DNA of 44,980 nucleotides from Selenomonas sp. (GCA_017635515.1 JAGBLH010000312.1:1-44980), one strand, 5' to 3'; positions 15,915 to 36,421 are shown, numbered from the stretch's first letter. Notes: a model not told the origin generated them from the letters alone. Translations and numbers: made by a program.

Positions 15915-15933
15915 GAGTATAGGAGGAATGACA

Positions 15934-18246: not shown

Positions 18247-18263
18247 GGTAAGATGAAAAATAT

Positions 18264-18316
18264 CATATTTCTACCATATTTCTACTTTTAGATGGAAATT
18301 TCCACTATATTTCTAC
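18264..18316 (+). repeat. CATATTTCTAC repeats around a GGAAATTTCC palindrome
   Basis: CATATTTCTAC occurs twice in tandem (18264-18274, 18275-18285) and again with one mismatch at 18306-18316. The perfect palindrome GGAAATTTCC (18294-18303) lies between. The second and third copies are 31 bases apart, about three helical turns. It sits upstream of a candidate promoter at 18348, so a regulator-binding site is likely. Confidence 0.6.
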
Positions 18317-18347
18317 AAGAAGTGTTAGTAAGGTGTTTTATTATCCC

Positions 18348-18376
18348 TTGCAAATCTTTTTTGTTTGTGCTATCCT
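18348..18376 (+). promoter_or_regulatory. Candidate promoter of the glycan cluster
   Basis: TTGCAA (18348-18353) and TATCCT (18371-18376) with a 17-base spacer. A second possible -10 box, TATAAT (18476-18481), lacks a good -35 partner. Confidence 0.5.
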
Positions 18377-18433
18377 AGGGGAGATGATTTTGCCCTTTAT
18401 GGATTCTGATTTTGCAAGGAGTGTGCGTCCAGG

Positions 18434-18559
18434 ATGTTACAAAAAATGGAAAAAGTAGCATTCGTATCTCTTGTGTATAATCAGAATAGACATATGTCCG
18501 TAGGGGGGGGGGGCATAGTGGCGAATTATCTGATACAATTCAGAATAATGCGTCTGTAA
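18434..18559 (+). pseudogene. 41-codon ORF resembling a glycosyltransferase N-terminus, with an 11-G tract
   Basis: This short ORF starts with ATG 18434 (or 18446), after AAGGAG at 18416-18421. The residues KVAFVSLVYNQNR followed by SVGGGGIVANYLIQ resemble the first strand and glycine-rich loop of GT-B glycosyltransferases. Homology appears to end within a dozen residues, and a TAA stops it at 18559. The four Gly codons are an 11-G run (18503-18513). Losing one G brings an immediate TAG; gaining one opens a frame to about 18604. It may be the remnant of a deleted gene or a switchable leader. No longer product is visible. Confidence 0.45.
18503..18513 (+). repeat. Poly-G tract, 11 bases
   Basis: A run of 11 G residues, the longest homopolymer I noticed in the window, inside the short glycosyltransferase-like ORF. 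Tracts of this length commonly change length by slipped-strand mispairing during replication. Confidence 0.9.
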
Positions 18560-18588
18560 TTTGCCCTGCCAATTTTATATTGTCTTTT

Positions 18589-18623
18589 GCAAGCCAAGCG
18601 TGCTGATACGCTTGGCTTGTTTG
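18589..18623 (+). terminator. Hairpin in the leader of the DUF4422 gene
   Basis: GCAAGCCAAGCG (18589-18600) pairs with CGCTTGGCTTGT (18609-18620), 11 Watson-Crick pairs plus one G-T, followed by a short T run interrupted by GCG. It could be a weak terminator or attenuator 35 bases before the next start. Confidence 0.55.
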
Positions 18624-18657
18624 CGTGCGCAAAAAATTTGCAGGGGAGGGACAGCAG

Positions 18658-19857
18658 GTGAGCAAACTCATACTATACGGCAGAGGCCTCATAGCTGAGG
18701 AATATTGCAGATATCTGGAAGCTCAAGGCAGGGGAGAGGACATAAAAGCTTTTGCCGTCACTAAGATGAACGGTCAGGGAAACACCTACTGTAGTCGCCC
18801 TTGTATAGAGATTAAAGATGCCATAGAAAAGTATCCTGAAGCAGAGGTACATTTGTCCCTGCAAGAAAAATATCACCAAGAAGTCTTAACCCTGCTAAAA
18901 GAACTAGGCCGGGAGCCAAAAGAAATAATCGGCCTCCAGCGCATGACAGAGCTATTGGGAGAGCAGGGCATAAAACAAATCAGTGAGGCCTGCCCAGAAT
19001 TGATAGTCCAAAGGAATCCTCATGATTATTCCATGCTTGAGATATTTTCTAAGGAACGTCCGAAAGAAAAATTCACATTCTACCCCATGACTCAGGTACC
19101 TTTAAGCGAAGAAGCTTTGGGGCGTATCCGGGATTATGTGCAGGAACATCTGCTCTATATCGCCCTGGCAACGTCCAAGAAGGATGCTGAAGTACGGAAG
19201 GATAACCTGCCGGATTACTTACATCCCGTGCTGGGGGGCGCAGCAGACCTTGATGGGAAGCAGGTCGGGCTGATTGAATATGACGATGCAGAAGCAGGCA
19301 ATATCTCCAGGTATAACCATCTGTATTCTGAACTCACAGTGGCATACTGGCTCTGGCAGAAAGCACCCAAGGCCAAATATCTTGGTCTCTGCCACTATCG
19401 GAGACATTTTGTGTTGACGGAAGAAGTAAAGGAAGCTATGGCCAGAGGCACGGTGGATGTCCTGCTCACAACACCAAGGTTGACATTTCCTACTGTTCAT
19501 AAGTACTTTGCCAATCTTCCTGTCACTACCATGGATGAACTGGACTATGAAACAATGCTCAGATTCATAGCGAGTGAAGATTCCGAGATAGCGAAGTATT
19601 CAAGGGATTTCTTTGAAGGCCAGATTCATTATCCAAACAACATGTTAATCGCCAGGAGAGATATTTACTTGGATTATTGCCGCTTCATGTTCAGGGTACT
19701 GCAGAGCATGCAGGAGCATTATGAGCGAGAGGGGATAGCCAGGCCGGAAAGATACCTTGGGTACGTGGGGGAACTGCTGACTACTGTCTATTTTGCCTTT
19801 CATCGCGGAAAGTACCGCACCACTTGCATAGATTACAAACTGCTGAAAGAGATTTGA
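18658..19857 (+). CDS. DUF4422 glycosyltransferase with N-terminal Rossmann-like module
   Basis: A 399-residue protein. Residues 1-100 begin LILYGRGLIAEEYCRYLE, a Rossmann-like nucleotide-binding pattern. From about residue 165 the DUF4422 domain follows, with YNHLYSELTVAYWLW and YLGLCHYRRHF, typical of glycosyltransferases in capsule and exopolysaccharide clusters. No membrane segment is seen. The GTG at 18658 is chosen because it lies about eight bases after AGGGGAGGGA and starts the Rossmann strand; an in-frame ATG at 18625 lies in leader sequence. It is the first full gene of the cluster, 14 bases before the next. Sugar specificity is unknown; UDP-galactofuranose is possible given glf downstream. 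Confidence 0.75.
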   Translation: MSKLILYGRGLIAEEYCRYLEAQGRGEDIKAFAVTKMNGQGNTYCSRPCIEIKDAIEKYPEAEVHLSLQEKYHQEVLTLLKELGREPKEIIGLQRMTELLGEQGIKQISEACPELIVQRNPHDYSMLEIFSKERPKEKFTFYPMTQVPLSEEALGRIRDYVQEHLLYIALATSKKDAEVRKDNLPDYLHPVLGGAADLDGKQVGLIEYDDAEAGNISRYNHLYSELTVAYWLWQKAPKAKYLGLCHYRRHFVLTEEVKEAMARGTVDVLLTTPRLTFPTVHKYFANLPVTTMDELDYETMLRFIASEDSEIAKYSRDFFEGQIHYPNNMLIARRDIYLDYCRFMFRVLQSMQEHYEREGIARPERYLGYVGELLTTVYFAFHRGKYRTTCIDYKLLKEI

Positions 19858-19871
19858 AGGAGAGATACTGC

Positions 19872-20330
19872 ATGAAATTCACAGAAGAAACCGAGCTGAA
19901 GGAGTTTTTCGGCGGGATAGACAGAGTGGCTTTCTACGGTGTAGGGGGCATGGGGAAGAATCTCTATGTCTATCTGAAAGACCATGGCTGGGAGCGGAAA
20001 CTGGCTTTCTTTGTAGTTACGAAGAAAAATGTAGATGAATTCTGGGGCGCCCCGGTGAAAGAGGTATCCGAGCTGGATGAGGAGGAACGCTGTCTGCCCG
20101 TGGTAATCGCCACCAGGAAGAATTTCCACGACAGTATCTACGGCTCCCTAAGCGCCGTAGGCGCTACGGACGTCCATACCCTGAGCGAGAGCCTGTTGAA
20201 CCATGTTGAGTATCTAGCCAATCAGTCCTCTCAGTATGACCTGGGACCTGCCAAGAAAAGGCATGCCGCCTGGCTGAAGCGCAAGCACCGCATACAGACT
20301 ATCTGGAATCTCGGCATGGCCGCCAAATAA
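19872..20330 (+). CDS. Small Rossmann-like protein of the glycan cluster
   Basis: A 152-residue protein I do not recognise by name. It opens with an acidic helix and then VAFYGVGGMGKNLYVYL, a glycine-rich loop after a beta strand as in NAD- or nucleotide-binding folds, and continues with alternating strands and helices to about residue 115. The rest is a basic C-terminal tail. It resembles the N-terminal module of the preceding DUF4422 protein and the C-terminal module of the DUF6270 protein at 27830, in stand-alone form. ATG 19872 follows GAAGGAGAG. No catalytic residues are evident; a role as partner of a neighbouring transferase is inferred. Confidence 0.6.
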   Translation: MKFTEETELKEFFGGIDRVAFYGVGGMGKNLYVYLKDHGWERKLAFFVVTKKNVDEFWGAPVKEVSELDEEERCLPVVIATRKNFHDSIYGSLSAVGATDVHTLSESLLNHVEYLANQSSQYDLGPAKKRHAAWLKRKHRIQTIWNLGMAAK

Positions 20331-20352
20331 GCAGAAGGAGAAGAGCAAGAGC

Positions 20353-22599
20353 ATGAAAGATATCAGGACATATACACTGCAGAACATCGTACTGCCGGAC
20401 GGAGACTTCAGCGAGCAGGAAGAGCTTTTTTATCGGGAAAAGAAATTCTTTGGGGAGTTGGACGGTAGCATGGTGCAGGGGCATCTCTGCTCCTTCGATA
20501 CCTGGATGAACTTGTTCGCCGCGGAGAAATGGTACCACTACTGTGAGCTGGGGAGCCTCTATCTGCGGATTTCCGGCCGGGGCAAGTGCCGCCTGGATAT
20601 CCTGGGGCACACCCTCTCCGTCATACATGGTGTCATGTCTGAGACGCTGACTTCAACCGCATGCGATTTGGGGGAGGGCGGCTCCATGCTGGTACCTGTG
20701 CCCGCTGCTGACGAAACGGAGGGGATTTCCCTGCGCCTCTTCTGCGAGGAGGGCGGCTTCTCTCTGGAAGCTGCTTCCTGGTGTACGGATGCAGCACCCC
20801 AGCGCAGCCACAGGATGGCCATTGCTTGCTGCACCTACAAGCGGGAAAGGTATGTGACCAAGAATATCAGGAAATTCCAAAGCCTGATGTCCACCCATCC
20901 GGAACTGGGCGGCAAACTGCATATGTTTGTCTCTGACAATGGACAGAGCCTGCCCGCTGATCTTGCCGATGAGCATGTGGACATCCTGCCCAATATGAAT
21001 GCAGGCGGCGCCGGCGGCTTTGGACGGGGGCTCATGGCGGCTAATGACGGCGGCTATACCCGCTGCATCTTCATGGATGATGATGTGGAGCTGTGCACCG
21101 AAGCTTTTTTGCGCTCCCTGGCTCTTTGCGAATACTTCAAGGAGGAGTATAAGGATGCCTTCGTAAATGGCGCCATGATGAATCTCTTTGACAGGAACAT
21201 ATGCTCCGAGAGCATCACGGTCAGGAATGCCTTCTGGCTGAAGCCCTATCATGGACAGGTAGATGTAAGTGAACTCTACGACACCATGAAATGCCTGAAT
21301 GTCACCGATGACATTTATGAGAAGACCTTCGTCAGTTCTTCCTGGTGGTTCGCTTGCTTCAACCTTGACCTCTACAAGGGGGAGTATCCCATCCCCTGCT
21401 TCATTCGCGGGGATGACTGCGAATGGAGCTGGCGCCGCCTGGGGGTGCATCACGTATCTCTGAACGGCATCTGCGTCTGGCACACGCCCTTTGACTTCAA
21501 CACCCGCCGCATGATTGACCACTATTTCCTGCCCCGGAACATGTTCCTGGTGCACAGCAACTACAACCCGGATTTCAAGAATGAGTGGTACGGCTATATC
21601 AACGGGTTCTTCAAGCATTTCATGTCCACTTACAACTACACCTCCGCCGAATTGCTGTTGTCTGCTCTGAGAGAGATTCTGAAGGGCTGGCAGAGCTTCA
21701 CGGAGGACCCGAAGGAAATGATGGGGCGTCTGCAGGCCATCTGCAAAACGGCAGAAACCAAAGCCTGCAAGAACATCTGCAAGCTGGAGGATGTGCGTGA
21801 TATTGGCTCCGGCGGCAAGTCCGTGGGCAAGAAGGGCATTGTGGTGGACTGGTTCCCCTCGGAGAACGTGTTCAAGGGCAAGAAGAAGATGGAAGTATAC
21901 AACCTGGTGACCCGCAAATGCGAGATCCGCAGGCCGGACAGCCTGAAGCAGGAGTGGCAGGAGGAAGAATACGACCTGAATATTCTGCGCCTCCACCTGT
22001 ATTTCGATGCAGTTCGGGACAATATGAAGGAAGGCCTGCCGAAGCTTACAAACAGAGAGTTTTGGGATGAGTATCTGGAGCTGGTGCCGCAGAAAGCAAA
22101 GGCACGGGAAGCAGCCAAGGATGCCAGGCAGGAAGAGGCCGTCGAAGAAGGCATAGAGCTGCGGGTAGCCCTAGAGGATGCCATCATGTATATGAATGAC
22201 GAGGAGCTGACAGCTGAAAAGCTGCAGGAGGCCATGCGTGAGGCTGTGCGCCATCAGATGGTGCAGGCGCTGGAGCATTATTTCGCAGAGAAGTGGCAGA
22301 AAATCCAGGACGGCGCAGAACAGGCCGAGGCTTTCGACGGGCAGTATAGAGAGCTTCGCGTATCAGTTACAGGCCTCATCGAAACCGCCAGGGGGATGGA
22401 ATACATGCTGAGCTGTGAGGACGCAGATAAGAATCTGGCGCAGTGGAAGAAGAATGATATGGACTTCCTGTGCGAAATCCTGCGTTTCCATTGCGGGAGC
22501 GATGCATTGGATAAACATGCGGCCTTCCTTAGGGGGTGCCTGGCTGAGGCAGCGGAGATGTATTCGGATCTCAGAAATACGGTTGTGGTGGAAGAGTAA
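20353..22599 (+). CDS. GT2-family galactofuranosyltransferase-like protein (GlfT2-like)
   Basis: A 748-residue transferase, probably adding galactofuranose from UDP-Galf to a growing surface glycan. Residues 1-150 form a beta-rich N-terminal domain as in mycobacterial GlfT2. The GT-A core follows: IACCTYKRE at about 157, the metal-binding DDD at 242-244, RGDDCEWSW at 352-360 (the acceptor-activating acidic region), and the histidine in CVWHTPF. A long helical C-terminal part ends with acidic, coiled-coil-like stretches. The presence of UDP-galactopyranose mutase (glf) 13 kb downstream supports the donor assignment. No membrane helix is seen, so it acts at the cytoplasmic face. Another GT2 specificity cannot be excluded. 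Confidence 0.78.
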   Translation: MKDIRTYTLQNIVLPDGDFSEQEELFYREKKFFGELDGSMVQGHLCSFDTWMNLFAAEKWYHYCELGSLYLRISGRGKCRLDILGHTLSVIHGVMSETLTSTACDLGEGGSMLVPVPAADETEGISLRLFCEEGGFSLEAASWCTDAAPQRSHRMAIACCTYKRERYVTKNIRKFQSLMSTHPELGGKLHMFVSDNGQSLPADLADEHVDILPNMNAGGAGGFGRGLMAANDGGYTRCIFMDDDVELCTEAFLRSLALCEYFKEEYKDAFVNGAMMNLFDRNICSESITVRNAFWLKPYHGQVDVSELYDTMKCLNVTDDIYEKTFVSSSWWFACFNLDLYKGEYPIPCFIRGDDCEWSWRRLGVHHVSLNGICVWHTPFDFNTRRMIDHYFLPRNMFLVHSNYNPDFKNEWYGYINGFFKHFMSTYNYTSAELLLSALREILKGWQSFTEDPKEMMGRLQAICKTAETKACKNICKLEDVRDIGSGGKSVGKKGIVVDWFPSENVFKGKKKMEVYNLVTRKCEIRRPDSLKQEWQEEEYDLNILRLHLYFDAVRDNMKEGLPKLTNREFWDEYLELVPQKAKAREAAKDARQEEAVEEGIELRVALEDAIMYMNDEELTAEKLQEAMREAVRHQMVQALEHYFAEKWQKIQDGAEQAEAFDGQYRELRVSVTGLIETARGMEYMLSCEDADKNLAQWKKNDMDFLCEILRFHCGSDALDKHAAFLRGCLAEAAEMYSDLRNTVVVEE

Positions 22600-22602
22600 G
22601 TG

Positions 22603-22630
22603 AAAAAGCCCCGCTGCAGGGCAGCGGGGC
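22603..22630 (-). terminator. Terminator of the DUF3990 unit (minus strand)
   Basis: A perfect 10-pair stem, GCCCCGCTGC (22608-22617) with GCAGCGGGGC (22621-22630). On the minus strand it is followed by five T residues (A run at 22603-22607). It lies between the convergent glycosyltransferase gene and the minus-strand pair. Confidence 0.88.
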
Positions 22631-22635
22631 AAGAA

Positions 22636-22938
22636 TCATTGTGCAACATTAGTTTGTGTTCTGGAGAACATCATTTCAAGTCTGGGGTCATATTTGGCGA
22701 ATTTACGCAGCTCCTCACCTGTGGGCCAGCGATAGCCGTTCATGAGGTAATTGCACCAATCATAAACGTCATAGTGAAGTACATATTGTGCGCCGCCGTA
22801 CTCCCGGCATTTCTCTATAAGACCGCTGCCACGGATCAGTTTCTTCCGCTCTTCGCGAGAGTAGCCGCGTTCTTTGAGGATAAGCATTATAGTACCGAAG
22901 AATTTCATGACTTCTACGCGTAAGGATTGAAACAGCAT
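22636..22938 (-). CDS. Hypothetical partner of the DUF3990 protein
   Basis: A 100-residue protein I do not recognise. It appears mostly helical with many charged residues (YSREERKKLIRGSGL, then HYDVYDWCNYLMNGY). The ATG immediately follows the DUF3990 stop on the minus strand, with AGGTGG inside the end of that gene as ribosome site, so the two are translated together. An internal ATG ten codons later is a possible start. The size and tight pairing with an ADP-ribosyltransferase-like gene suggest an antitoxin or accessory, by inference only. Confidence 0.6.
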   Translation of the reverse strand: MLFQSLRVEVMKFFGTIMLILKERGYSREERKKLIRGSGLIEKCREYGGAQYVLHYDVYDWCNYLMNGYRWPTGEELRKFAKYDPRLEMMFSRTQTNVAQ

Positions 22939-23409
22939 TTATAAGACCACCTTTCTGATGTTGGATATGTGTTTTACGGCGTTGTTGGATAGAACAACCC
23001 ACTGCCAACCGTTGGTATTGGCACGAATTTTGTTGATGGCAGCTTCCATAGTAAGTCTGTGGGCTTGATAGCGAGCGTACAGACGGGAGACTCCAGAATC
23101 AGCCATGGGGCCGTAAATACAGTCAAATTCTGTAGGAGGAATCAAGCCAAAGCGATTTTTTATCACAAATTCGGCCCATTCGCGGCTTGGCGTGTCAAAG
23201 CCCTTGATTTTGAGATTGGATTCATCAAGCTCCATACTGAGGACGCAAGGTGAGATGGTTCCTTCGGCCCAATCAATGGCCTGGGCCAGGTGGGGCGTGG
23301 TATAGAAGCCTTGACCAAAGTCAAGGAAGGGGCGTCCGTGTGAGAGGGAGATGCCTTCATTTAGGATTTTATCGGCACTGAAGATGTCAGTGCCGTGGAA
23401 TAGTTTCAT
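22939..23409 (-). CDS. DUF3990 protein (ADP-ribosyltransferase-like)
   Basis: A 156-residue protein with the DUF3990 pattern: the N-terminal LFHGTD, then DFGQGFYTTPHLAQAIDWA near residue 31. DUF3990 is related in fold to PARP-like ADP-ribosyltransferases, where the H-x-T and Tyr positions bind NAD. No signal peptide is present, so it acts inside the cell. It has its own promoter, a clear AGGAGG ribosome site (23418-23423 complement) eight bases from the ATG, and a terminator, and it is oriented against the glycan genes on both sides. That layout suits a self-contained toxin or defence unit. The target is unknown. Confidence 0.8.
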   Translation of the reverse strand: MKLFHGTDIFSADKILNEGISLSHGRPFLDFGQGFYTTPHLAQAIDWAEGTISPCVLSMELDESNLKIKGFDTPSREWAEFVIKNRFGLIPPTEFDCIYGPMADSGVSRLYARYQAHRLTMEAAINKIRANTNGWQWVVLSNNAVKHISNIRKVVL

Positions 23410-23448
23410 TTGAAAGGCCTCCTTCTGCTAGAGAATATTCTTACTATT

Positions 23449-23476
23449 ATTGTAGCAAATAGGGAGACAGTGTCAA
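23449..23476 (-). promoter_or_regulatory. Promoter of the DUF3990 unit (minus strand)
   Basis: On the minus strand, TTGACA (complement of 23471-23476) and TACAAT (complement of 23449-23454) are 16 bases apart, 40 bases before the DUF3990 ATG. Confidence 0.75.
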
Positions 23477-23533
23477 TAGAGAAATGATTTTGTGGGCTAT
23501 GGATAATTAATTGTAGATAGGAGATGTAACTTG

Positions 23534-26500
23534 ATGGGACAGGAGAAGAAATATGATGTGGGCATCATGGGATTATGGAGCGGTTGCAACTATGGCAGCA
23601 TCATGACCTATTACGCATTGAACCGCGTAGTTGATTCTATGGGGAAATCTATCCTCATGATTGACAAGCCCATTCTGTCGGAAAGAGATGTGGAGCGGGA
23701 GGAGACTCATTCCCGCAGGTTTGGTAAGGAGCATTACGATATCAGCAAGCAGTACAGGCCAAATGAAATGCATGAGTTGAACGATATCTGTGATACGTTC
23801 CTCATAGGTTCTGACCAAGTTTGGAACTATGGCATCAGTAAAAATTTTGGCAAACTTTTCTACTTCGATTTCGTAGATGAGCAGAATAAGAAACTTGCAT
23901 ATGCTGTTTCTTTCGGACATGGCACAGATTTTGCACCGCCTGAGGAGAGGAAGGTTATATCTGGATATATGGCAAGGATGGACGGCATAGCTGTTCGTGA
24001 AGCAGATGGTGTACGTTTGTGCCGGGAGCAGTATGGAATCAAGGCTCTGCAGGTATTGGATCCTGTATTTTTGGCAGACCCGAAAATTTATACTCCTATT
24101 ATTAAGAAGTCTGCCCATAAAGAAGAAGAGCCTTTTATGGTTACATATATCCTTGATCCCACGCCGGAGAAATGTGAGGCTGCAAGGCATATTGCGGAAA
24201 AGCTTGGCGGTATAAAGATAATTAGTCTTTTGGATGGACTGCCCTGGAAATTTAAAGAGAACAAAGAAAAGACCACACTTCCCAATTGCATTGAGAATCT
24301 TCAGGTGGAGGATTGGCTCTATTACCTCAGCAACGCCAAATTTATCCTGACTGATTCCTGCCATGGTGCTTCTTTTGCTCTTATCTTCAAAAAGAATTTT
24401 ATAGCCATGACGAATAGGCATCGTGGTGTGTCCAGGTTCAAGTCACTGTCGGAGTTGTTTAAGTTTGAAGACAGGCTTGTGGAGGATCCTAGACGCATAT
24501 TGACGGATGAGCATTTATTAGAGCCACTGGATTATGTGATGATAGATTCCATAATGAAAAAGGAACGCACAAGGTGTCGGGAGTGGCTTAAAGACAAGTT
24601 GGATGAGCCTAAGAGGCCTGCTTCTGAGCTGAAAAATACGAATATAGTCCAGAAACAGGCGAGGTCTGCAGAAAAGGGCAGTGTAAATCTTTCTAATACT
24701 GTGATGCAGGTTGCTGAAGCTGGAAATTGCACTGGTTGCAGTGCCTGTGCATCTGTCTGCCCTAAGAATGCCATCACCATACGTGAGAATCAGAATGGTT
24801 TCTTGCAGCCTGAGATTGATGAGGAAAAATGCGTCAATTGTGGCATCTGCCTGACTAAGTGCATTTCCGAGCACCCGGTATACAAAAATAGTCCTCGTCC
24901 TGCTTGCTTTGCTATGATGGCTAATGATGAGACCAGGAAAATCAGCTCATCTGGCGGTATGTTTTCCGTAGCGGCAGAATATGTGCTGGAAAAAGGCGGC
25001 TATGTATGCGGTGCGGCTTATCGTGATGATTTCACGGTAGAGCATATCTTGATAAGCGACAAGGCAGAACTTTCAAGGCTGCGTGGCTCGAAATACATGC
25101 AGAGCCACATGGGACATATCTATGAGGACATAAAGGCATTGCTGGAAGAGGGGAAAATGGTCTTGTTCACCGGCATGCCTTGTCAGACAGCTGGACTATA
25201 TGCAAGCTTAGGGAAAGATTATGAAAACCTCTATACTATAGACCTCTTTTGCCATGGCATTACTTCTTCCAAGGTGTTCCAGAAGTACCATCATGATGTG
25301 CTGGGGGGCAACCCTCTGGCAAGGCTGGAGTTCAAAGAAAAGGCGCCTTGGGGCTGGCATGCAGGAGTGAACGCTTATTTCAAGGATGGCTCGAAGTATT
25401 CAGTGCCCTTGGAGAGAGATCCATATTTCATAGCTTATCTCAAATCGCTTGCCAAGAATACCTCTTGTGCTACATGTACATCCAACAGATTGCCTCGTCA
25501 GGGCGATATGACCATTGGAGATTTCTGGGGTATTGCCAGAAATGACCCAGAAATGCACGATGGTAAGGGAACATCTGCTGTATTGGTGAACAACGAAAAG
25601 GGCACACGATTCTTTGAGGCATTGAAAGATCGCATGAAGAGCTGGAAAGAAGAAAGTCTGGATGTAGCTATTCGCGGCAACCGCATTATCCAGGCTCCCT
25701 ATCGCCTTCATAGGAATAGGAATGAATTCTTTAAGAATTTCAGTTCTACGGATTTCACCTCACTTACCATGGGGTGCTTTAACAACCGCATCTATGAGAT
25801 GCAGAAAAAAGAGCTGCTTAAAATTATGCCTGAGAGTGATATTGAGCTTTATTATCTGGCCAAGGCAGCGGTGGAAAATAGCGGCGGCAGGAAAATCATT
25901 GCATGGATGAAATCTCCCAGATTTGAAGAAATACTTAGAAAGTATTTTGATAGAGAAGTATATTTCTCTATTGTAAGGAATCCGGCAGGAGTAGATAACA
26001 AGACACAGTTCCCTTTGAGTGCAGTACGGGGAAAGGCTGCCGATTATTATGTGGTGGGCATTAACCCCGGTCCGGACATGTGCCGTGATATAGAGGCTTT
26101 TGGCTACCGTGAAATCAAAGATTATATCTTCCGTATGCCAAGGCCGGTGGTATTGGATAATTTTGATTGTGGCAAGGGGCGTTACGAAGATGCATATGGA
26201 AACACTATTGAAGGGGTATCAGGTATAATCGGCCGTATTGTTTTCCGTGGCGGGAACAACCACATTGTCCTTGGGGAACGCATCCGCCACATGGAAAACC
26301 TGTCTTTTGACCTAGTGGCAAACTCCTATATCGAGATTGGTGCTGAGTGTGCGTTTAATGCTCCCAGTAGGTTTATCGTGATTGGCCGCAATGGCAACAG
26401 CGAGATAAAAATAAGGGAGAAGTGCCGTTTCACCGATGTGCTTACGCGTGTTTACAATAGCGAATATACATCATCTATCTTGATTAATGATTCCTGTTCA

Positions 26501-27808
26501 TTTGAGTCACATCTGGAACTCCATGCTAACTCTGGCAAGAAGATTATTGTGGGCAGGGACTGCATGTTCTCCCACAATATAGATCTCTGGGCAGGGGATG
26601 GGCACACTGTGTTTGATGTGGTGACCGGGAAAAATACAAATTCTGACTGGGAAAATTTGCCTCCTGGCAAGAATGCGCTTGTTATAGGTAATCATGTATG
26701 GATAGGCAAAGGTGCTTTTATCATGCATGGTACGAACATCGGGGATGGCAGTATTGTCGGAGCAATGAGCATGGTCAAGGGCACTTATCCGAACAATTGT
26801 ACAGTATTTGGAAATCCTGCAAGGGTAGCCAAGAGAAATGTTGCTTGGAGCAGGGATATGGTTGCGGAAAACATCTCACAATGTGGAAGAGAAGAATACG
26901 CTGTTAAAACCTCACACGCGAAGGCACCTGTTAGTGGAAGAAAGGTGTTGGTGATTGGTGGTACACGTTTCATGGGAGTGCATCTAGTCCGTGAACTTAT
27001 TGCGCTTGGCAATGATGTAACGATTGCAACGAGAGGACGCAAACCTGATGATTTTGGTATTGATGTAAAACGACTGACATTAGATGTGTCAAGTAAAGAA
27101 AGCTGCCAGAGGGCGTTGAAGGGGAAATCTTTTGATGTAGTCTTTGATAATCTGGCCTATTGCTCAGAGTATGCTGATAATGTTCTGGAAAATGTTCAGT
27201 GCAAGCGATATGTGCAGCTTTCGTCGGTTGAAGCATATAAGAACCTTCATATAGATATGAAAGAAGCGCATTTTGATCCTTATAAGATTCAAATGAAGCT
27301 TTGTGCACCGTCAGTAGGATATGTAGAAGGAAAGAGGCAGGCAGAGGCTGTTATATATCAGAAATATAAAAATATCTCAGCTGTGACTGTGCGTATTCCG
27401 TATGTTGCACCGACTGAAAGGCTTTACTATTATTGCAAAAATATGATTGATGGGACTCCGATGAGAATCAAAGATGTATCCCACGCATTCACATTTATAA
27501 GGGCACAGGAAGTTGGAAAGTTCTTGCCCTGGATTGCAGCACAGGATTTCAATGGTCCTGTCAATCTTGCAAGCAGCGGATTCGTTTCGATTCAGCAGAT
27601 TTTAGATTATATAGCTGAGAAGACGCATAAAACTCCAGTTGTTTCACAGAATGAAGAACTTCCACAAGGGCCATTTACGGTATACAACGAAAATAGGTAT
27701 TCGCTTAATCTGGATAAGGCTGTTTCTTTGGGATGGAAGTCGTCAAATCTCTATGATTGGTTTTGGGATCTTATGGATAGGTATATAGCAAAGGCGTTTA
27801 GGAAATAA
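23534..27808 (+). CDS. Multi-domain fusion: pyruvyltransferase, Fe-S FrhB-like, acyltransferase and SDR
   Basis: A 1424-residue single frame. Residues 1-340 look like a polysaccharide pyruvyl transferase (GLWSGCNYGSIMTYYAL start). Residues 395-750 carry two 4Fe-4S clusters (Cys399, 402, 405, 409 and Cys433, 436, 439, 443) and an FrhB-like domain (SSSGGMFSVAAEYVL, FTGMPCQTAGL). Residues 780-890 look like a short Rossmann-like module. Residues 925-1115 are a left-handed beta-helix acyltransferase ending GNHVWIGKGAFI, FGNPARV. Residues 1135-1424 are an NAD-dependent epimerase/dehydratase with GGTRFMG (1142-1148) and YVEGK. ATG 23534 follows AGGAGA by nine bases; TTG 23531 is possible. It probably makes and attaches a modified sugar. 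No internal frameshift is visible. Confidence 0.8.
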   Translation: MGQEKKYDVGIMGLWSGCNYGSIMTYYALNRVVDSMGKSILMIDKPILSERDVEREETHSRRFGKEHYDISKQYRPNEMHELNDICDTFLIGSDQVWNYGISKNFGKLFYFDFVDEQNKKLAYAVSFGHGTDFAPPEERKVISGYMARMDGIAVREADGVRLCREQYGIKALQVLDPVFLADPKIYTPIIKKSAHKEEEPFMVTYILDPTPEKCEAARHIAEKLGGIKIISLLDGLPWKFKENKEKTTLPNCIENLQVEDWLYYLSNAKFILTDSCHGASFALIFKKNFIAMTNRHRGVSRFKSLSELFKFEDRLVEDPRRILTDEHLLEPLDYVMIDSIMKKERTRCREWLKDKLDEPKRPASELKNTNIVQKQARSAEKGSVNLSNTVMQVAEAGNCTGCSACASVCPKNAITIRENQNGFLQPEIDEEKCVNCGICLTKCISEHPVYKNSPRPACFAMMANDETRKISSSGGMFSVAAEYVLEKGGYVCGAAYRDDFTVEHILISDKAELSRLRGSKYMQSHMGHIYEDIKALLEEGKMVLFTGMPCQTAGLYASLGKDYENLYTIDLFCHGITSSKVFQKYHHDVLGGNPLARLEFKEKAPWGWHAGVNAYFKDGSKYSVPLERDPYFIAYLKSLAKNTSCATCTSNRLPRQGDMTIGDFWGIARNDPEMHDGKGTSAVLVNNEKGTRFFEALKDRMKSWKEESLDVAIRGNRIIQAPYRLHRNRNEFFKNFSSTDFTSLTMGCFNNRIYEMQKKELLKIMPESDIELYYLAKAAVENSGGRKIIAWMKSPRFEEILRKYFDREVYFSIVRNPAGVDNKTQFPLSAVRGKAADYYVVGINPGPDMCRDIEAFGYREIKDYIFRMPRPVVLDNFDCGKGRYEDAYGNTIEGVSGIIGRIVFRGGNNHIVLGERIRHMENLSFDLVANSYIEIGAECAFNAPSRFIVIGRNGNSEIKIREKCRFTDVLTRVYNSEYTSSILINDSCSFESHLELHANSGKKIIVGRDCMFSHNIDLWAGDGHTVFDVVTGKNTNSDWENLPPGKNALVIGNHVWIGKGAFIMHGTNIGDGSIVGAMSMVKGTYPNNCTVFGNPARVAKRNVAWSRDMVAENISQCGREEYAVKTSHAKAPVSGRKVLVIGGTRFMGVHLVRELIALGNDVTIATRGRKPDDFGIDVKRLTLDVSSKESCQRALKGKSFDVVFDNLAYCSEYADNVLENVQCKRYVQLSSVEAYKNLHIDMKEAHFDPYKIQMKLCAPSVGYVEGKRQAEAVIYQKYKNISAVTVRIPYVAPTERLYYYCKNMIDGTPMRIKDVSHAFTFIRAQEVGKFLPWIAAQDFNGPVNLASSGFVSIQQILDYIAEKTHKTPVVSQNEELPQGPFTVYNENRYSLNLDKAVSLGWKSSNLYDWFWDLMDRYIAKAFRK

Positions 27809-27829
27809 ATATTTGCCGGGGTGAAATGA

Positions 27830-29101
27830 GTGGATGAACGTAAAATTCATATCAGTATTGTGGGATCGTGTGTGCCTAGAGATGCTTTTGGCATAGCTGA
27901 TGAGACGGGAAAATTCGTTGTGGATAGATTTGTACAAAGTATTAACCCTATTTCGGCAATGAGCGAGAGTCCGCTTATAAAGGACTGGAATCTCCGGGGG
28001 GGGGACGAAGAGCGATTTGGATTTAAGAGCCATTTCCATATGCGCAATGCATTTTTGGATTTAAACAAAAAGCTATTTTCTTATTTGGGTGAAGTACAGT
28101 CAGATTGGTTGTTGATGGATTTTAGCTGTTTGAGAAATAATTTATTTCGATTCGCAGATGGTTCATTTTGTACTGCACCGCTTATAAGTATGTGCACATG
28201 TTCGACTCTATTCGATGAGCAGTATCTGGATGAATCACATGAAACTTTTAGTTCGCTGACCGTCGATTTGAAGATTCTGTATAAGTCTTTGGATGCTTAT
28301 ATAGACAAGATATTAGAGTTATATCCACAGGAGAGAATTATTTTCTTTGAAAGTTATGCAACTTATTGGTATTTTAAAAGGTCCAGAAAATCTTGTTATG
28401 TGTATAACATTCCCTTAGCTAATAAGTTTAATAAAATTTTTAGAATGGGATTTGAATATGCACTTAGACGTATGCCATCTGCGCATATGATACGCTTCCC
28501 TTATGGAATGTTGTCAAATGAGGCGCACAAGTGGGGACGTCATCCTTTACATTATGTGGACGAATACTATAAGTATGCATATGAAGCTGTAGAACACATA
28601 GTTTGCTGTGATAACAGAGAGCAGGAAGCAGATGCTTTGATGCGTTTGCAAAGATATTATGAGGATGCGTTGTGTAGGAAATATGCTCCGTATAAAGAAA
28701 GGTATTTGGCAGAGTGGGACGCTGGACAGAAAAAGGAGGAGTGGGTGATTGAGACTAAAGATTGGCTGAGGGATTTTGTTGCTAATGATAAGAAACAGGA
28801 TTTGGAAAGATTTTTTAAGTCTAAGAAGTTTAAATGTGTTTCTTTATATGGTTTGTCAGATGTAGGCAAAGCTTTGATACCTGTTATTTTGTCAATGGGA
28901 GTAAAGATTAACTATATAGTGGAAAATGGAACTTATGGTACTGATTACGAAGGAATTGCCCTAGTACCCAGGGATTCTAAGTGCTATCCTGCAACAGAGT
29001 GCATGATTATCACAGATCTGAGGATTGAAAAGGTGCGGAGAAAACTGAAGAGGATGAATGTATCCTTTGAAGTACAGGATATATATTCTGTTATCGCCTA
29101 A
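27830..29101 (+). CDS. DUF6270 protein with C-terminal Rossmann-like module and a 9-G tract
   Basis: A 423-residue protein. Its N-terminus, ISIVGSCVPRDAFG, matches the GSCVSRD-type opening of DUF6270, an SGNH-hydrolase-like family in polysaccharide clusters; a late PYGMLSNEAHKWGRHPLHY segment supplies the usual His. From about residue 325 a Rossmann-like module starts (CVSLYGLSDVGKALIPV). The start is GTG at 27830 after GGGGTGA. Codons 56-59 contain nine G residues (27996-28004). One base lost or gained gives a stop within about 25 codons, so expression may be phase variable. Base composition is AT-rich. Esterase activity on a glycan is a guess from the fold. Confidence 0.7.
   Translation: MDERKIHISIVGSCVPRDAFGIADETGKFVVDRFVQSINPISAMSESPLIKDWNLRGGDEERFGFKSHFHMRNAFLDLNKKLFSYLGEVQSDWLLMDFSCLRNNLFRFADGSFCTAPLISMCTCSTLFDEQYLDESHETFSSLTVDLKILYKSLDAYIDKILELYPQERIIFFESYATYWYFKRSRKSCYVYNIPLANKFNKIFRMGFEYALRRMPSAHMIRFPYGMLSNEAHKWGRHPLHYVDEYYKYAYEAVEHIVCCDNREQEADALMRLQRYYEDALCRKYAPYKERYLAEWDAGQKKEEWVIETKDWLRDFVANDKKQDLERFFKSKKFKCVSLYGLSDVGKALIPVILSMGVKINYIVENGTYGTDYEGIALVPRDSKCYPATECMIITDLRIEKVRRKLKRMNVSFEVQDIYSVIA
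27996..28004 (+). repeat. Poly-G tract, 9 bases, inside the DUF6270 gene
   Basis: Nine G residues encode Arg-Gly-Gly and part of Asp in the intact frame. With ten G the frame reaches TAA within about eight codons of the tract; with eight G it stops about 20 codons later. The tract is striking because the gene around it is AT-rich. Confidence 0.9.
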
Positions 29102-29131
29102 AAGCAGTGATTGATGAGAGGAGTGTGTGTA

Positions 29132-31627
29132 GTGAAATCAGAGGTTTATCATGGCGAAAGTAATATTGATATAGAATATGTTTTTCATAAAGTATCTAAT
29201 GAATCAGATACTTTAATCGTTTCGTTTCCAGGAGCAGGTGGAGCAGTGCCTGGATATGCTGCTGGATGGGATGCATATGGGTATCTTATAACGCTTCGTT
29301 CGATGAATATGAATGGATTGTTTATAAAAGGAAATTCAGAATATGCGAAATCTCGTATGACTTTTAGAAATCATGAGCCGGTGATAGAACATGCGTTGAT
29401 ATCTTTGATAAAGAAATGTAAATTGGAATGTAGTGCGAAAAGAATAATTGTCATAGGATCTTCTATGGGAGGATTTTGTGCTCTGTATTATGGACTGAAA
29501 TATGACTGGGATATTATTTCTGGATCACCTTCGTATGGATTTTATGATACATCACTTGTATATGCTGCAGGCAAGACTGGAAAAAGTGAAAGAGAGTGGT
29601 TGAATGCGCAACTCCCAACTATAATAAGGGAGGCTGGAAAGCGTGGTTATGACAAGAAGTGCTTTATATCCTACGGAGAGGGAGAGGGCTTGTGGCTATC
29701 AGAAAGGCATGGACAAAAACTTATTGTTGATTTAAAAGACGCTGGTATTTCCTTTGAATGTAAGTTGTACCCATTTTCAGATCACGATACTGTTCATAGA
29801 TTGTTCCCTAAAGTTTTGATGTGGAAACTTAAAAATTATTTGGGAATTGAGGTTGAGGACAATGATGATGATATAGTGGAATCCCCTGAGGCAAAATTGG
29901 CAGAATTCTGGGAGAATGGCCGAAAGGCACTGATTCATAGTTTGGATGGAAGGGATAAGGAAAAAGCGCCATGTTTGAATATAAATGGATGCATGCATTA
30001 TGGAAATAAAGATTCTCAAAAGGCATTGCACGATTTTGTATATATTCGTAGTGGCTGGTTTTGGAATAACACGAAGAAGAAACCTATTAGAATGGAGGAC
30101 GGTGATACATATTGGCGAATTGCAACAATGACGGACAATAACGCGGCCTGTGGATTTTCTTTTCAAGATTCTTTGTTAAGTTACCTAGAGACGCAGGAAT
30201 ATGACGAAATGTATGAGTGGTTGGCCGAAAATACTAGAGAATACCTTAATGGTATGAGTGTGAATTGTAAAGGTAATCGAGACAGTGCTATATATAGGAT
30301 ACATTATCTAATTGCATTTCATACATTGGATAAATATAAGGAAAAAGCACCGACATGGACTTCTTGGATTTCAGAAGAAATTGATAGAGATATAAGATTT
30401 GTTATGTCACATTTGGGCAATATGACTGTGTCAATGAAATACGATTTTTTGTTATTATGCTTTCATATAGCTGTGTATTTTTCAAATGATGAGAAACTAT
30501 ATGCTGCTTTGTATCGAGAATTGCTTATACTCTTAGATAGGCAGTTGGAATATGATTTTGATGATAATGGTGTATGTATTTCTGCACAAATAAGAAGACA
30601 TGATTTTCTTGTCCTTCATTTGCGGAAGATCTTGAAATTCATTGAAGATAATCAATTCCCTAATGATAAGATGTTTAGGAAAATCATGAGAATGTATGAG
30701 AAAATTGAAAAAGTGGCAACCTATATGTCATCACCAAATGGTATGCTTGCATCAATAGGTGAAACATCAATTTCTGAAAAGTCGCGGTGCCTTTCTTTGG
30801 AGAAACGTGCATCGGGGAATCTTATTATGCGTACGTCAGATCTGGCTTTCTTAGAAGATGAAGCATCTATTTCGTATATTACTGTAGGTGGAGGAAAAAA
30901 TATACATTCCAATAAGAAACATTGTGATCTTCTTTCCTTTACCTGGCAGTATTGTGGGAAACAAATATTTTTTGACCCAGGGAGAGGGGCAGGGAAAATA
31001 GATTTGTATGCATCATCAACGGTGGCACATACTTCTTTTATCTGTGAGGGGAAGGAGTATTTAATCCCCAGTTATAATGATTGGACCACTATGGATGAGG
31101 TAACAGAGAATGAAAACTATGTTTCTTTAGAAATGTCACATCATTTATTGGATGGTATAGAATTGAAGCGTAAGTTTATATGGATAAAGCCAAATATTGT
31201 TATCTTGATAGATGAAGCGTATTCGCGAACAATAGAAAAATTCACCCAGAATTTCATAATGGAAAACTATCCAATGAAAAAGGTGGATGAAAGACGAGTG
31301 GTTGTTCAAATCGCGCCTGGGTTCGATGTTTCTATCACACAATGCTTGCCAAACTTCTTGCTCAATGAGTACCACGGTACAAATCATGTAGATGATGAAC
31401 AACACATTCGTGGATCACTTATTCAAAATGAGAAAATGGTTCGCAGAGGTTTGAATCTTGCATATACACAAGAGGGGAATATTGTTAAATTTTTTACTTT
31501 AATAGAGTGTCATAACTCATCCCAAAAAGAAGTACAGGAAAAGAAAGTGAAAAAGTTACATCGGGATGAGAATGAAAAATTAGTGATAGAGTTTTTTGAA
31601 AGTCCTGATATCGTAAAAGAAGTGTGA
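29132..31627 (+). CDS. Alpha/beta-hydrolase fused to a heparinase II/III-like domain
   Basis: An 831-residue protein. Residues 1-240 are an alpha/beta hydrolase with nucleophile elbow GSSMGG (Ser111) and a late His in PFSDHDTVHR; related domains occur in Asp2-type glycan acetyl-handling proteins. Residues of about 290-560 are helical, like the toroid of heparinase II/III-type lyases. The C-terminal part, from about 580, has the beta-sandwich pattern (LLSFTWQYCGKQIFFDPGRG, then VAHTSF). No signal peptide is seen, which is odd for a polysaccharide lyase. GTG 29132 lies eight bases after GAGAGGAG; earlier in-frame TTG/ATG codons at 29111 and 29114 precede that site. The region is AT-rich, about a third GC. 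Confidence 0.68.
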   Translation: MKSEVYHGESNIDIEYVFHKVSNESDTLIVSFPGAGGAVPGYAAGWDAYGYLITLRSMNMNGLFIKGNSEYAKSRMTFRNHEPVIEHALISLIKKCKLECSAKRIIVIGSSMGGFCALYYGLKYDWDIISGSPSYGFYDTSLVYAAGKTGKSEREWLNAQLPTIIREAGKRGYDKKCFISYGEGEGLWLSERHGQKLIVDLKDAGISFECKLYPFSDHDTVHRLFPKVLMWKLKNYLGIEVEDNDDDIVESPEAKLAEFWENGRKALIHSLDGRDKEKAPCLNINGCMHYGNKDSQKALHDFVYIRSGWFWNNTKKKPIRMEDGDTYWRIATMTDNNAACGFSFQDSLLSYLETQEYDEMYEWLAENTREYLNGMSVNCKGNRDSAIYRIHYLIAFHTLDKYKEKAPTWTSWISEEIDRDIRFVMSHLGNMTVSMKYDFLLLCFHIAVYFSNDEKLYAALYRELLILLDRQLEYDFDDNGVCISAQIRRHDFLVLHLRKILKFIEDNQFPNDKMFRKIMRMYEKIEKVATYMSSPNGMLASIGETSISEKSRCLSLEKRASGNLIMRTSDLAFLEDEASISYITVGGGKNIHSNKKHCDLLSFTWQYCGKQIFFDPGRGAGKIDLYASSTVAHTSFICEGKEYLIPSYNDWTTMDEVTENENYVSLEMSHHLLDGIELKRKFIWIKPNIVILIDEAYSRTIEKFTQNFIMENYPMKKVDERRVVVQIAPGFDVSITQCLPNFLLNEYHGTNHVDDEQHIRGSLIQNEKMVRRGLNLAYTQEGNIVKFFTLIECHNSSQKEVQEKKVKKLHRDENEKLVIEFFESPDIVKEV

Positions 31628-31696
31628 TTTTTGTAGATGATAGGCGATAAAGTTTAAACTTATAAATATAGCTAAAATTGCTGGGGGTATTGAAAG

Positions 31697-31930
31697 ATGA
31701 ACGAAAAGTTTAAAGAAATATTAAATGAAGTCAATCCAGAAATTCTCGAAAGCGAAGGGGTTAATCTGATGGAGGAGAAAATTATAGACAGTTTGATGGT
31801 TATGCGGATTGTTACTATGGCAGAGAATGTTTTCAATATTGATTTTGAACCTGATGACATCTTGCCAGAGAATTTTACATCTCCGGATATTATATGGAAG
31901 ACAATTCAAAAGTATGGTTTGAATGAATAG
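31697..31930 (+). CDS. Acyl carrier protein-like
   Basis: A 77-residue four-helix carrier protein with the phosphopantetheine attachment site DSL (Ser32). It would carry an activated acyl or aminoacyl group as a thioester. It starts 12 bases before an adenylating enzyme, as dltC and dltA do in D-alanylation loci and as carrier/adenylation pairs do in surface-glycan clusters. The sequence is acidic and AT-rich. It is not the fatty-acid ACP, whose site is usually GADSLDTVE. The attached group is unknown; the neighbour's relation to DltA suggests an amino acid. Confidence 0.85.
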   Translation: MNEKFKEILNEVNPEILESEGVNLMEEKIIDSLMVMRIVTMAENVFNIDFEPDDILPENFTSPDIIWKTIQKYGLNE

Positions 31931-31942
31931 GAGGGGATTGAG

Positions 31943-33454
31943 ATGATAATAAATATTCTTGAACTCTTAGAGAACTCTGCTAGCAAATACCCTGATAAAG
32001 TATTCCTGGCAGACGAGAAAAAATCCGTGACCTTTGCTGAGGCTGAGAAAACCGCCAAGCACATCGGTAGTTTCCTCACATCCAAAGCTCACGCCCGCAA
32101 CCACCCAATCGCTGTCTGTGTAGGCAGAGAAGTGGAAAGCGTCCTCATGTTCCTGGGCGTTGCTTACAGTGGCAATTTCTATGTTCCCATCAACAGGGAA
32201 CTTCCAGCAGACCGTATAAAGGTCATGCTGGACACACTTCAGCCAGAGGCAGTACTGGGGCTGGCAGAAGACAGGGTACAGATGGAAGACTTCTCCTGTC
32301 CTTTCTATGGATTTGACGAAGCCAGCAAGGCAGAGGTGAGGGAAGGAGCGTTGGCCCTTATCCGCCGTGATGCTATAGATACCGACCCTCTCTATGCCAT
32401 CTTTACCTCTGGCTCCACCGGCACCCCAAAGGCGGTCATGGTGAGCCATCGTTCTGTAATTGATTTGGCATATGCTTATCGTGATGCCTTTGAGATTACG
32501 TCAGAGTCCATCTGTGGCAATCAAGCGTCCTTTGATTTTGATATGTCTGTAAAGGACATAGGTTCGGCTCTGTTGAACGGATGCACTGTTCATATAATTC
32601 CTAAAGACAGATTCTCTTTCCCTGTAAAGCTCATTGCTTATCTGAACGAGAAGAAGATTACCCATTGCTTCTGGGCTGTTGCTACTCTTTGTGTGGTGGC
32701 AAGCCTTAAGGGAATGAAAAACGAAACTCCTAAATACCTGAAGCATGTGGTTTTTGGTGGGGAAGTCATCCCCATCAAGGTGCTGAATTACTGGATGGAG
32801 CACCTGCCGGAGACAAGGTTCTACAACGGCTATGGTCCTACGGAAATCACTGTGAACTGCACCTACTTCCCAGTAAGTCGTCAGTATGAACTGGACGAAG
32901 CTGTCCCCATCGGCAGGCCATTCTCCAATACCGGCGTGTTGGTGCTGGATGAGCATGACAAGCCTGTGCGTGGCGATGGTGTCGGAGAACTCTGCGTACG
33001 TGGCACCTGCCTGGCGCTTGGCTATTACAAGAATCCCGAAAAGACAGCAGAAGTTTTCGTGCAGAACCCACTGAATACTTCTTATCCTGAGAAGATTTAT
33101 CGCACCGGAGACTTGGTGAAATATGATAAAGATGGTCAGATAGTCTTCTGTGGCAGGAAGGACTTTCAGATCAAGCACATGGGCTACCGCATAGAGCTGG
33201 GGGACATAGAAACCGCTGCCAACGCTCTGGACATGGTAGGCAGAACTTGTTGCAGCTATGATAACGAGCACAGGCAGATAACTCTTTTTTACGAAGCAAA
33301 GGAGAAAATAGATAAGGAAGTGCGCGAGGCATTGAAAACCAAGTTGCCAAAGTACATGGTTCCGAGCCAGTATGTGCAGCTACCGAGCTTCCCCAATAAC
33401 GTGCACGGAAAGATTGATAGGAAGAGGTTGGAAAAAGAATATATACAGAAGTGA
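31943..33454 (+). CDS. Adenylation enzyme, DltA/NRPS-like amino acid activating
   Basis: A 503-residue ANL-family enzyme that forms an acyl-adenylate with ATP and loads it onto the adjacent carrier protein. Core motifs are present: FTSGSTGTPKAV near residue 154, a FDFDMSVKD segment like the FDLSVMD of DltA, YGPTE near residue 300, YRTGD near residue 388, and the C-terminal NVHGKIDRKRL with the catalytic Lys. DltA-like proteins activate D-alanine, but specificity here is not proved. The first codons are AT-rich and the rest is richer in GC than the genes before it. No DltB-type acyltransferase follows; a small membrane protein and an SGNH remnant do. Confidence 0.85.
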   Translation: MIINILELLENSASKYPDKVFLADEKKSVTFAEAEKTAKHIGSFLTSKAHARNHPIAVCVGREVESVLMFLGVAYSGNFYVPINRELPADRIKVMLDTLQPEAVLGLAEDRVQMEDFSCPFYGFDEASKAEVREGALALIRRDAIDTDPLYAIFTSGSTGTPKAVMVSHRSVIDLAYAYRDAFEITSESICGNQASFDFDMSVKDIGSALLNGCTVHIIPKDRFSFPVKLIAYLNEKKITHCFWAVATLCVVASLKGMKNETPKYLKHVVFGGEVIPIKVLNYWMEHLPETRFYNGYGPTEITVNCTYFPVSRQYELDEAVPIGRPFSNTGVLVLDEHDKPVRGDGVGELCVRGTCLALGYYKNPEKTAEVFVQNPLNTSYPEKIYRTGDLVKYDKDGQIVFCGRKDFQIKHMGYRIELGDIETAANALDMVGRTCCSYDNEHRQITLFYEAKEKIDKEVREALKTKLPKYMVPSQYVQLPSFPNNVHGKIDRKRLEKEYIQK

Positions 33455-33455
33455 G

Positions 33456-33569: not shown

Positions 33570-33658
33570 TGTTCGATTTATATGAAATTATTAATTGATT
33601 TTTAGAGGCTTATCATTGCTGAAGTTTAAATAAAAACTTCTGTATAAGTGGGATGTGA

Positions 33659-33802: not shown

Positions 33803-33894
33803 CAGATCTATCTGAGTATTAATTATGAAATAACATCATTGTGTACTTTTGATAACTTGTAAGTTGTGGATGAGCAATGAAAGAAGGTGTCAAT

Positions 33895-34485: not shown

Positions 34486-34500
34486 GAAAATATCAAAGAA

Positions 34501-34537: not shown

Positions 34538-34546
34538 CAAAATGAT

Positions 34547-35087: not shown

Positions 35088-35326
35088 GGTAATCCCTCCT
35101 TTGTCAATATTTTACATTATGATTCGATTTGAAGTCAATGAGATTGTAATGATTTATAACTACAATATAAGAAAATGCAAATATGACTTGGAAGAAGGTG
35201 TAATTCCCTTTATAGGTGGGGACTTCATAACGCGTGGTGAGCTAACATCTATCGCTTCGCTGAAATACAAGGAGGAAGGTTTGCCTTCGGCAAAGCAGTA
35301 ACAAGGTCATTATAATGGAGGTTATT
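35088..35326. other. Gap between dinJ and glf
   Basis: The left part holds the dinJ promoter. A 60-codon plus-strand ORF (35119-35301) overlaps that promoter, lacks a ribosome site and shows no known motif, so I do not call it. A small TTTGCC/GGCAAA hairpin lies near 35280. Confidence 0.5.
35109..35138 (-). promoter_or_regulatory. Candidate promoter of dinJ-yafQ (minus strand)
   Basis: On the minus strand, TTGACT (complement of 35133-35138) and TAAAAT (complement of 35109-35114), 18 bases apart, about 20 bases before the dinJ ATG. Confidence 0.5.
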
Positions 35327-36421
35327 ATGTACGATTACCTGATAGTCGGCAGCTGCCTTTTTGGCGCTGTTTTTGCTCATGAGATGAAGAAGAAAGGCAA
35401 ATCCTGCCTGGTGCTGGAGCGCAGGGGTCATGCGGGGGGCAATGTGTACTGCGAGGAGAAGGACGGCATCAACGTCCATAAGTACGGTGCCCATATCTTC
35501 CATACTTCCTATAAGGATGTGTGGGAGTATGTCAACGGCTTTGTGGAGTTCAACAACTATGTGAATAGTCCTGTGGCCAATTTCCGTGGGGAACTTTACA
35601 ACCTGCCCTTCAACATGAACACCTTTACCAAACTTTGGCCGGAGGTGCGTACTCCTGCCGAGGCGGCGGCCAGGATTGAGGAGGAACGGCAGTTGGCTGG
35701 CATTAGTGAACCGCAGAAACTGGAGGAGCAGGCTGTTTCCCTTATTGGCCGCACTGTCTACGAGAAGCTCATCAAGGGCTATACGGAAAAGCAGTGGGGG
35801 CGTGCCTGCACTGAGCTGCCGGCTTTCATCATCAAACGTCTGCCTGTGCGTTACACCTTTGACAATAACTATTTCAATGACCGCTATCAGGGCATTCCCG
35901 TGGGTGGCTATAACAAGCTTATTGATGCCCTGCTGGAAGGGATTGAAGTGCGGCTGAATACGGACTATCTGCAGGATAGGGAGAATTTTGACAAGCTGGC
36001 CCAAAAGATAGTCTACACCGGCCCTATTGACGAATATTTCGATTATCAGCTGGGGCGTCTGGAGTATCGTGGTTTGAAATTCGAGACAGAGAGGCTGGAA
36101 GAGGAAAATCATCAGGGCGTGGTTGTCATGAACTTTACTGCCCGGGAAGTGCCCTATACCCGCATCATCGAGCACAAGCACTTCGAGTTTGGCAAGCAGC
36201 CTGTCACCTATGTGACCAGGGAGTATCCCGCTGACTGGCAGCCTGGCGAAGAAGCATACTATCCTGTCAACAACGACAAGAATCAGGCACTATACCAGCA
36301 GTATGCAGATTTGGCCGCCAAGGAAAATAATGTCATTTTCGGAGGACGGCTGGCTGAGTACAAATACTATGACATGGACGATGTCATTAAGAGCGCCTTG
36401 GAGCAGGCAGCCAAGGAATAA
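35327..36421 (+). CDS. glf: UDP-galactopyranose mutase
   Basis: FAD enzyme converting UDP-galactopyranose to UDP-galactofuranose, the donor for galactofuranosyltransferases. The 364-residue protein begins DYLIVGSCLFGAVFAHEM, the FAD-binding strand-loop-helix (usually GAGLSG, here GSCLFG), then LERRGHAGGNVY and KYGAHIFHT, typical of the family. The KGYTEKQWG and RYTFDNNYF segments also match. ATG 35327 lies five bases after TGGAGG; an ATG at 35315 precedes that site. It complements the GlfT2-like gene at 20353. Its higher GC content than the preceding 8 kb marks a return towards core-like composition. Confidence 0.93.
   Translation: MYDYLIVGSCLFGAVFAHEMKKKGKSCLVLERRGHAGGNVYCEEKDGINVHKYGAHIFHTSYKDVWEYVNGFVEFNNYVNSPVANFRGELYNLPFNMNTFTKLWPEVRTPAEAAARIEEERQLAGISEPQKLEEQAVSLIGRTVYEKLIKGYTEKQWGRACTELPAFIIKRLPVRYTFDNNYFNDRYQGIPVGGYNKLIDALLEGIEVRLNTDYLQDRENFDKLAQKIVYTGPIDEYFDYQLGRLEYRGLKFETERLEEENHQGVVVMNFTAREVPYTRIIEHKHFEFGKQPVTYVTREYPADWQPGEEAYYPVNNDKNQALYQQYADLAAKENNVIFGGRLAEYKYYDMDDVIKSALEQAAKE

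Follow-up and report, generated by a model that had tools for sequence, protein, structure and literature searches.

Capsules and O-antigens can contain O-lactyl ethers, and the literature that we searched describes no pathway or gene pair for making them. We analysed a stretch of Selenomonas sp. DNA (JAGBLH010000312.1; 44,980 nucleotides, hereafter the window) that contains an unusual fused gene. Its product combines a polysaccharide pyruvyl transferase (PSPT), an FrhB-type iron-sulfur reductase, a hexapeptide acyltransferase and a short-chain dehydrogenase/reductase (SDR). Chains in glycan clusters that unite PSPT and FrhB, in either order, are among the closest known systems. One example, Marinibacterium QEW23941.1, is annotated as 'coenzyme F420-reducing hydrogenase subunit beta'. 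The acyltransferase and SDR are extra in the window chain.

In its proposed chemistry the chain resembles MurA and MurB of UDP-MurNAc synthesis. In that pathway enolpyruvyl is transferred from phosphoenolpyruvate (PEP), and a flavin enzyme then reduces the product to a lactyl ether. The window modules have folds unrelated to those of MurA and MurB, and we claim no common ancestry. The E. coli O124/O164 and Klebsiella K22, K37 and K66 loci also have a PSPT gene and glycans with O-lactyl groups (presumably so for O124), and FrhB adjoins PSPT in O124/O164. However, the genes are separate there and the FrhB subfamily is distant; the reductase of the Klebsiella loci is putative. The reductase module has F420-independent counterparts of the FrhB fold, with flavin and 4Fe-4S centres, in 7-hydroxymethyl chlorophyll a reductase (HCAR) and the divinyl reductase BciB. 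Both differ in acting on chlorophyll substrates. BciB reduces a vinyl C=C bond.

On balance, we favour a MurA/MurB-like sequence of reactions on the fused chain. Briefly, the PSPT module would move enolpyruvyl from PEP onto a sugar hydroxyl. The FrhB module, using flavin and iron-sulfur centres, would then reduce the vinyl double bond, with electrons probably drawn from ferredoxin. This would yield an O-(1-carboxyethyl), or O-lactyl, ether rather than the cyclic ketal of pyruvate. Subsequently or separately, the hexapeptide module may O-acylate the glycan, and the SDR may catalyse another NAD(P)-dependent sugar step. Since the cluster also encodes a GlfT2-like transferase and a UDP-galactopyranose mutase, the acceptor plausibly lies in a glycan with galactofuranose. 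A first-pass annotation of this DNA had tied a reductive step to sugar pyruvylation; that idea stands in outline and is sharpened here to an enolpyruvyl ether converted to a lactyl ether. Its further suggestion, that the same product is acylated and epimerised on the chain, found no support.

A single chain with four recognisable enzymes

The fused gene runs for 1424 codons without a stop. Every family named in the first-pass annotation was matched by Pfam in the translation (PF04230, PF04432, PF04422, hexapeptide and SDR). The gene and its modules are as follows.

23519..23523, + strand: ribosome-binding site AGGAG, 10 bases 5' of the ATG at 23534
23534..27808, + strand: fused gene, ATG start, 1424 aa; alternative TTG start at 23531
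23534..24607, + strand: module 1 (aa 1-358), PSPT; PF04230 at aa 19-294, 2.7e-25
24683..25783, + strand: module 2 (aa 384-750), reductase with dicluster 4Fe-4S ferredoxin (PF12838, aa 398-444), FrhB_N (PF04422, aa 461-526) and FrhB_C (PF04432, aa 541-701, 4.9e-18)
25871..26128, + strand: module 3 (about aa 780-865), degenerate Rossmann-like segment, no Pfam match
26246..26866, + strand: module 4 (aa 905-1111), left-handed-helix (hexapeptide) O-acyltransferase; PF00132 at aa 1050-1083; PDB 3jqy, 1.9e-20
26939..27796, + strand: module 5 (aa 1136-1421), atypical SDR; Epimerase/SDR profile PF01370 at aa 1138-1219; GGTRFMG and YxxxK motifs

A scan of in-frame starts in the gene found no ribosome-binding site with an internal start at the module joints. 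The sole other in-frame start with a ribosome-like site of at least 5 bases is codon 1064, inside the acyltransferase module. We conclude that the frame is a genuine single chain, as first read, and that it holds four recognisable enzymes, not five. The short Rossmann-like segment, degenerate and unmatched, does not count as a fifth.

The PSPT module scored 90.3 bits with PF04230, against a curated cut-off of 25.3, and its profile reached the Pvg1p structure (5ax7, 1.7e-4). Residues R155 and H277 are invariant across the aligned PSPTs. Judged by motif position (CsaB lies outside the alignment), they appear equivalent to R148 and H308 of CsaB, which are required for PEP binding (PMC10435577).

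The FrhB module exceeded the cut-offs for both PF04422 (35.1 bits against 22) and PF04432 (65.9 against 23.3). None of the eight ferredoxin cysteines is missing (399, 402, 405, 409, 433, 436, 439 and 443), and the SDR YxxxK motif is present too; both had been noted in the first reading. Further cysteines at 550, 573, 645 and 648 are invariant among aligned family members. This is the only FrhB protein of the source genome. We rejected F420 as its cofactor: the source genome and 12 relatives lack F420 synthesis genes, with no match to CofD or CofH over the curated cut-off in any of them. The same cut-off was passed in three control genomes. The FrhB profile reached HCAR (5dqr, 4.2e-6), which is F420-independent since it is a plant enzyme. 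By these comparisons the module is probably ferredoxin-dependent rather than F420-dependent.

Module 3 leads into the acyltransferase and has a degenerate glycine loop. A purpose-built profile found relatives elsewhere, one being the C-terminus of another FrhB protein, though very few sequences stand behind this profile and some weaker matches may be unrelated. The hexapeptide repeats of module 4 scored 33 bits against a cut-off of 27, and its nearest solved relatives are polysialic acid O-acetyltransferases. For the SDR, PF01370 scored 33.6 bits in the whole protein and 39.6 bits in the module alone (cut-off 20.9), with GGTRFMG at 1142 and YVEGK at 1263. Standalone relatives in other genomes reach 42% identity. 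The SDR had been called an epimerase, a label that found no support: no specific NCBIfam model passed its cut-off with this module and PDB matches were weak. An AlphaFold model of the module by itself was uninformative (predicted local distance difference test, 34). Its GC content at third codon positions (GC3) is 0.36, compared with 0.48-0.49 in the PSPT, FrhB and hexapeptide modules, and resembles that of the downstream DUF6270 gene. From this lower GC3, the SDR module may be a later addition to the chain.

Recurrence of the fusion and exchange of the reductase

Searches of genomes from the family, class and phylum found no second full-length copy of the architecture, in agreement with the earlier statement that no chain was known with all modules. 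Conversely, the implication that the fusion is isolated must be withdrawn, because PSPT-FrhB, FrhB-PSPT, PSPT-FrhB-hexapeptide and FrhB-hexapeptide fusions recur. We found 11 chains joining PSPT and FrhB. Five, with that of the window included, have the window order, another is headed by a CsaB-type PSPT, and the remaining five are FrhB-first. Two more chains fuse FrhB to a hexapeptide module. A congener (L015, genome G165) encodes a 916-aa chain in which PSPT, FrhB and hexapeptide modules follow one another as in the window. Its modules are 24-32% identical to those of the window chain; of the two, only the window chain has the Rossmann-like segment and SDR. Between the window PSPT and the PSPT of an FrhB-PSPT fusion in genome G509, identity is 50%. 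Since the PSPT-FrhB fusion is recurrent, the novelty of the fused chain lies in its SDR. Viral contigs gave no match. A further search of genome contigs returned two loci, with PSPT and FrhB together only in that of Alistipes. An Alistipes genome (L038:4796-7857) has consecutive nitroreductase, FrhB and PSPT genes.

Linkage of the two genes extends beyond fusions. In the window's bacterial family, 27 of 29 loci have FrhB within about 2 kb of a PSPT gene, and the same spacing holds at 16 of 22 loci in the other families of the phylum that were sampled. On enterobacterial plasmids PSPT has FrhB or a nitroreductase as its neighbour. PSPT identity between such pairs reaches 99.4% (over 337 aa), for a nitroreductase-PSPT pair and an FrhB-PSPT pair on related E. 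coli plasmids. Paracoccus and Gemmobacter encode PSPT fused to a nitroreductase, in chains of 849 and 871 aa. The presence of two unrelated flavoprotein folds in the same position suggests a shared role, reduction of the PSPT product. As in the window, a relative of the GlfT2-like transferase is close to PSPT-reductase fusions in Gemmobacter, G509 and G520.

The E. coli plasmids L068, L073 and L074 carry nitroreductase-PSPT cassettes, flanked by insertion sequences, near a recombinase gene; L073 also has FrhB-PSPT. The Klebsiella aerogenes plasmid pair, used as a DNA query, had no match in E. coli genomes.

We ruled out the notion that every FrhB goes with a PSPT. The class holds a group of FrhB proteins unlinked to PSPT and, hence, the FrhB fold itself is general. 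Standalone FrhB genes in another family of the class (L127, L130 and similar) have no PSPT within several kilobases.

Lactyl glycans and alternative explanations

Glycan structures provide a further comparison. PSPT genes were reported in only four Klebsiella capsule types without reported pyruvate: K8, K22, K37 and K66 (PMC4616057). In an independent table, O-lactyl sugars are listed for K22, K37 and K66 only, and K8 is listed with pyruvylated galactose (PMC6856556). The probability of this overlap arising by chance is 2.6e-4, or 7e-5 with K8 set aside. The sole difference between the K22 and K37 loci is one acetyltransferase gene (PMC3857182); the title of a reference in the same paper gives the K22 sugar as 4-O-[(S)-1-carboxyethyl]-glucuronic acid. 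Because these loci are near-identical, the lactyl ether model predicts a two-plus-one split of reductases. Across 79 Klebsiella loci, nitroreductase genes number two and a 'coenzyme F420 hydrogenase' gene appears once (PMC4616057). In Salinivibrio, an O-antigen bearing 4-O-lactyl mannose reportedly resembles repeating units in which that mannose has a 4,6-pyruvate instead (PMC8466920). This likeness fits a common enolpyruvyl intermediate.

The E. coli O124/O164 cluster has the order wzx-FrhB-PSPT-GT-GT-wzy-GT-glf-GT (GT, glycosyltransferase). DNA relatives of its FrhB gene, among 5426 E. coli genomes, were confined to five O124/O164 chromosomes and one plasmid. Strain TUM18780 (O124/O164) has its PSPT annotated as two adjoining open frames (L072:11148-12283); the gene is single and intact in WEC and VL7S7.

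Several observations weigh against lactyl ether synthesis by the window chain. No lactyl-modified glycan is known from the source organism. The O124 FrhB is distant from that of the window (18% identity in the alignment, BLAST E 0.007) and is missing the second ferredoxin cluster. The O124 antigen presumably carries 4-O-[(R)-1-carboxyethyl]-glucose. A review reports this sugar just for Shigella dysenteriae (PMC10609480). For Klebsiella, the placement of the nitroreductases in K22 and K37 and of the F420 hydrogenase in K66 is our inference. The near-identity of the E. coli PSPTs may reflect homogenisation by recombination between cassettes. FrhB was without a nearby PSPT in 10 of 11 further class-level loci (two on short contigs), and one FrhB adjoins a LysR regulator, a non-glycan setting.

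The PF04230 enzymes characterised so far, CsaB and Pvg1p, are ketal-forming (PMC10435577). The window PSPT could likewise make an ordinary cyclic ketal, with FrhB separately reducing the same glycan or a sugar nucleotide. An HCAR-like deoxygenation is one such reaction: HCAR, a solved member of the FrhB fold that was matched above, strips a hydroxyl oxygen from its substrate, and FrhB occurs without PSPT too. Yet the tight linkage, both fusion orders and replacement by nitroreductase argue for a shared step, and the Klebsiella lactyl types have PSPT genes without a ketal. We consider separate ketal formation and reduction unlikely. More doubtful still is a scaffold role for the chain, with at least one module having lost catalysis while still coupling the cluster enzymes physically. 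The third segment could be read in this way, as its Rossmann glycine loop is degenerate and it matches no family that we could recognise, but the enzyme modules retain intact motifs.

We also considered whether an error of assembly or annotation had merged separate genes of one operon. The source assembly is a draft of 316 contigs with 5.8% estimated contamination, and homologous modules are separate adjoining genes in many relatives. Against this, the joints are in frame, with neither stops nor internal ribosome sites, and the 916-aa congener chain preserves the order. Merging separate genes would take several independent errors. We regard an artefact as very improbable.

The lactyl ether reading can be extended beyond this locus. 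A PSPT paired with an FrhB or nitroreductase flavoprotein might be a general bacterial lactyl ether synthase, the non-homologous counterpart of MurA/MurB acting on polysaccharides; we hold the case for and against this to be evenly balanced. The window chain, with PSPT and a flavin reductase on one polypeptide, would then be a single-protein version, also carrying an acyltransferase and SDR for the same glycan. The comparison yields a testable gene assignment, with PSPT forming the enolpyruvyl ether and FrhB or nitroreductase reducing it. If true, this would explain FrhB 'coenzyme F420' proteins in polysaccharide loci of bacteria apparently without F420. It also cautions that a PSPT gene is not always evidence of a pyruvate ketal.

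Genomic setting

The fused gene lies within a glycan cluster bounded by lon (15928-18246) and a YsxC-type GTPase gene (37433-38116). This low-GC cluster spans 18247-37432 and is inserted between housekeeping genes. The GC content is mostly about 0.55-0.61 in the flanks and 0.35-0.45 in much of the cluster. Similarly, GC3 is 0.36-0.49 in the modules of the fused gene and 0.84 in lon. These drops relative to the flanks and lon suggest that the cluster is an acquired insert. The source organism has LpxC and so probably makes lipid A and an outer membrane. Other genes of the cluster are listed below.

18625..19857, + strand: DUF4422 protein
20353..22599, + strand: GlfT2-like galactofuranosyltransferase; PDB 9dtp 8e-15, 4fix 1.2e-13
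22939-23409, - strand: DUF3990 gene, immediately 5' of the fused gene on the opposite strand
27830..29101, + strand: DUF6270 protein, immediately downstream of the fused gene
29111..31627, + strand: 838-aa protein, N-terminal part XcbB/CpsF-like (weak profile match)
31943..33454, + strand: AMP-binding (adenylating) enzyme
35315..36421, + strand: UDP-galactopyranose mutase (GLF); PF03275 2.3e-83

Near its C-terminus the 838-aa protein also gave a heparinase II/III-like match, which is very weak. On contig C277 (L002), a relative of its N-terminal part adjoins a hexapeptide transferase.

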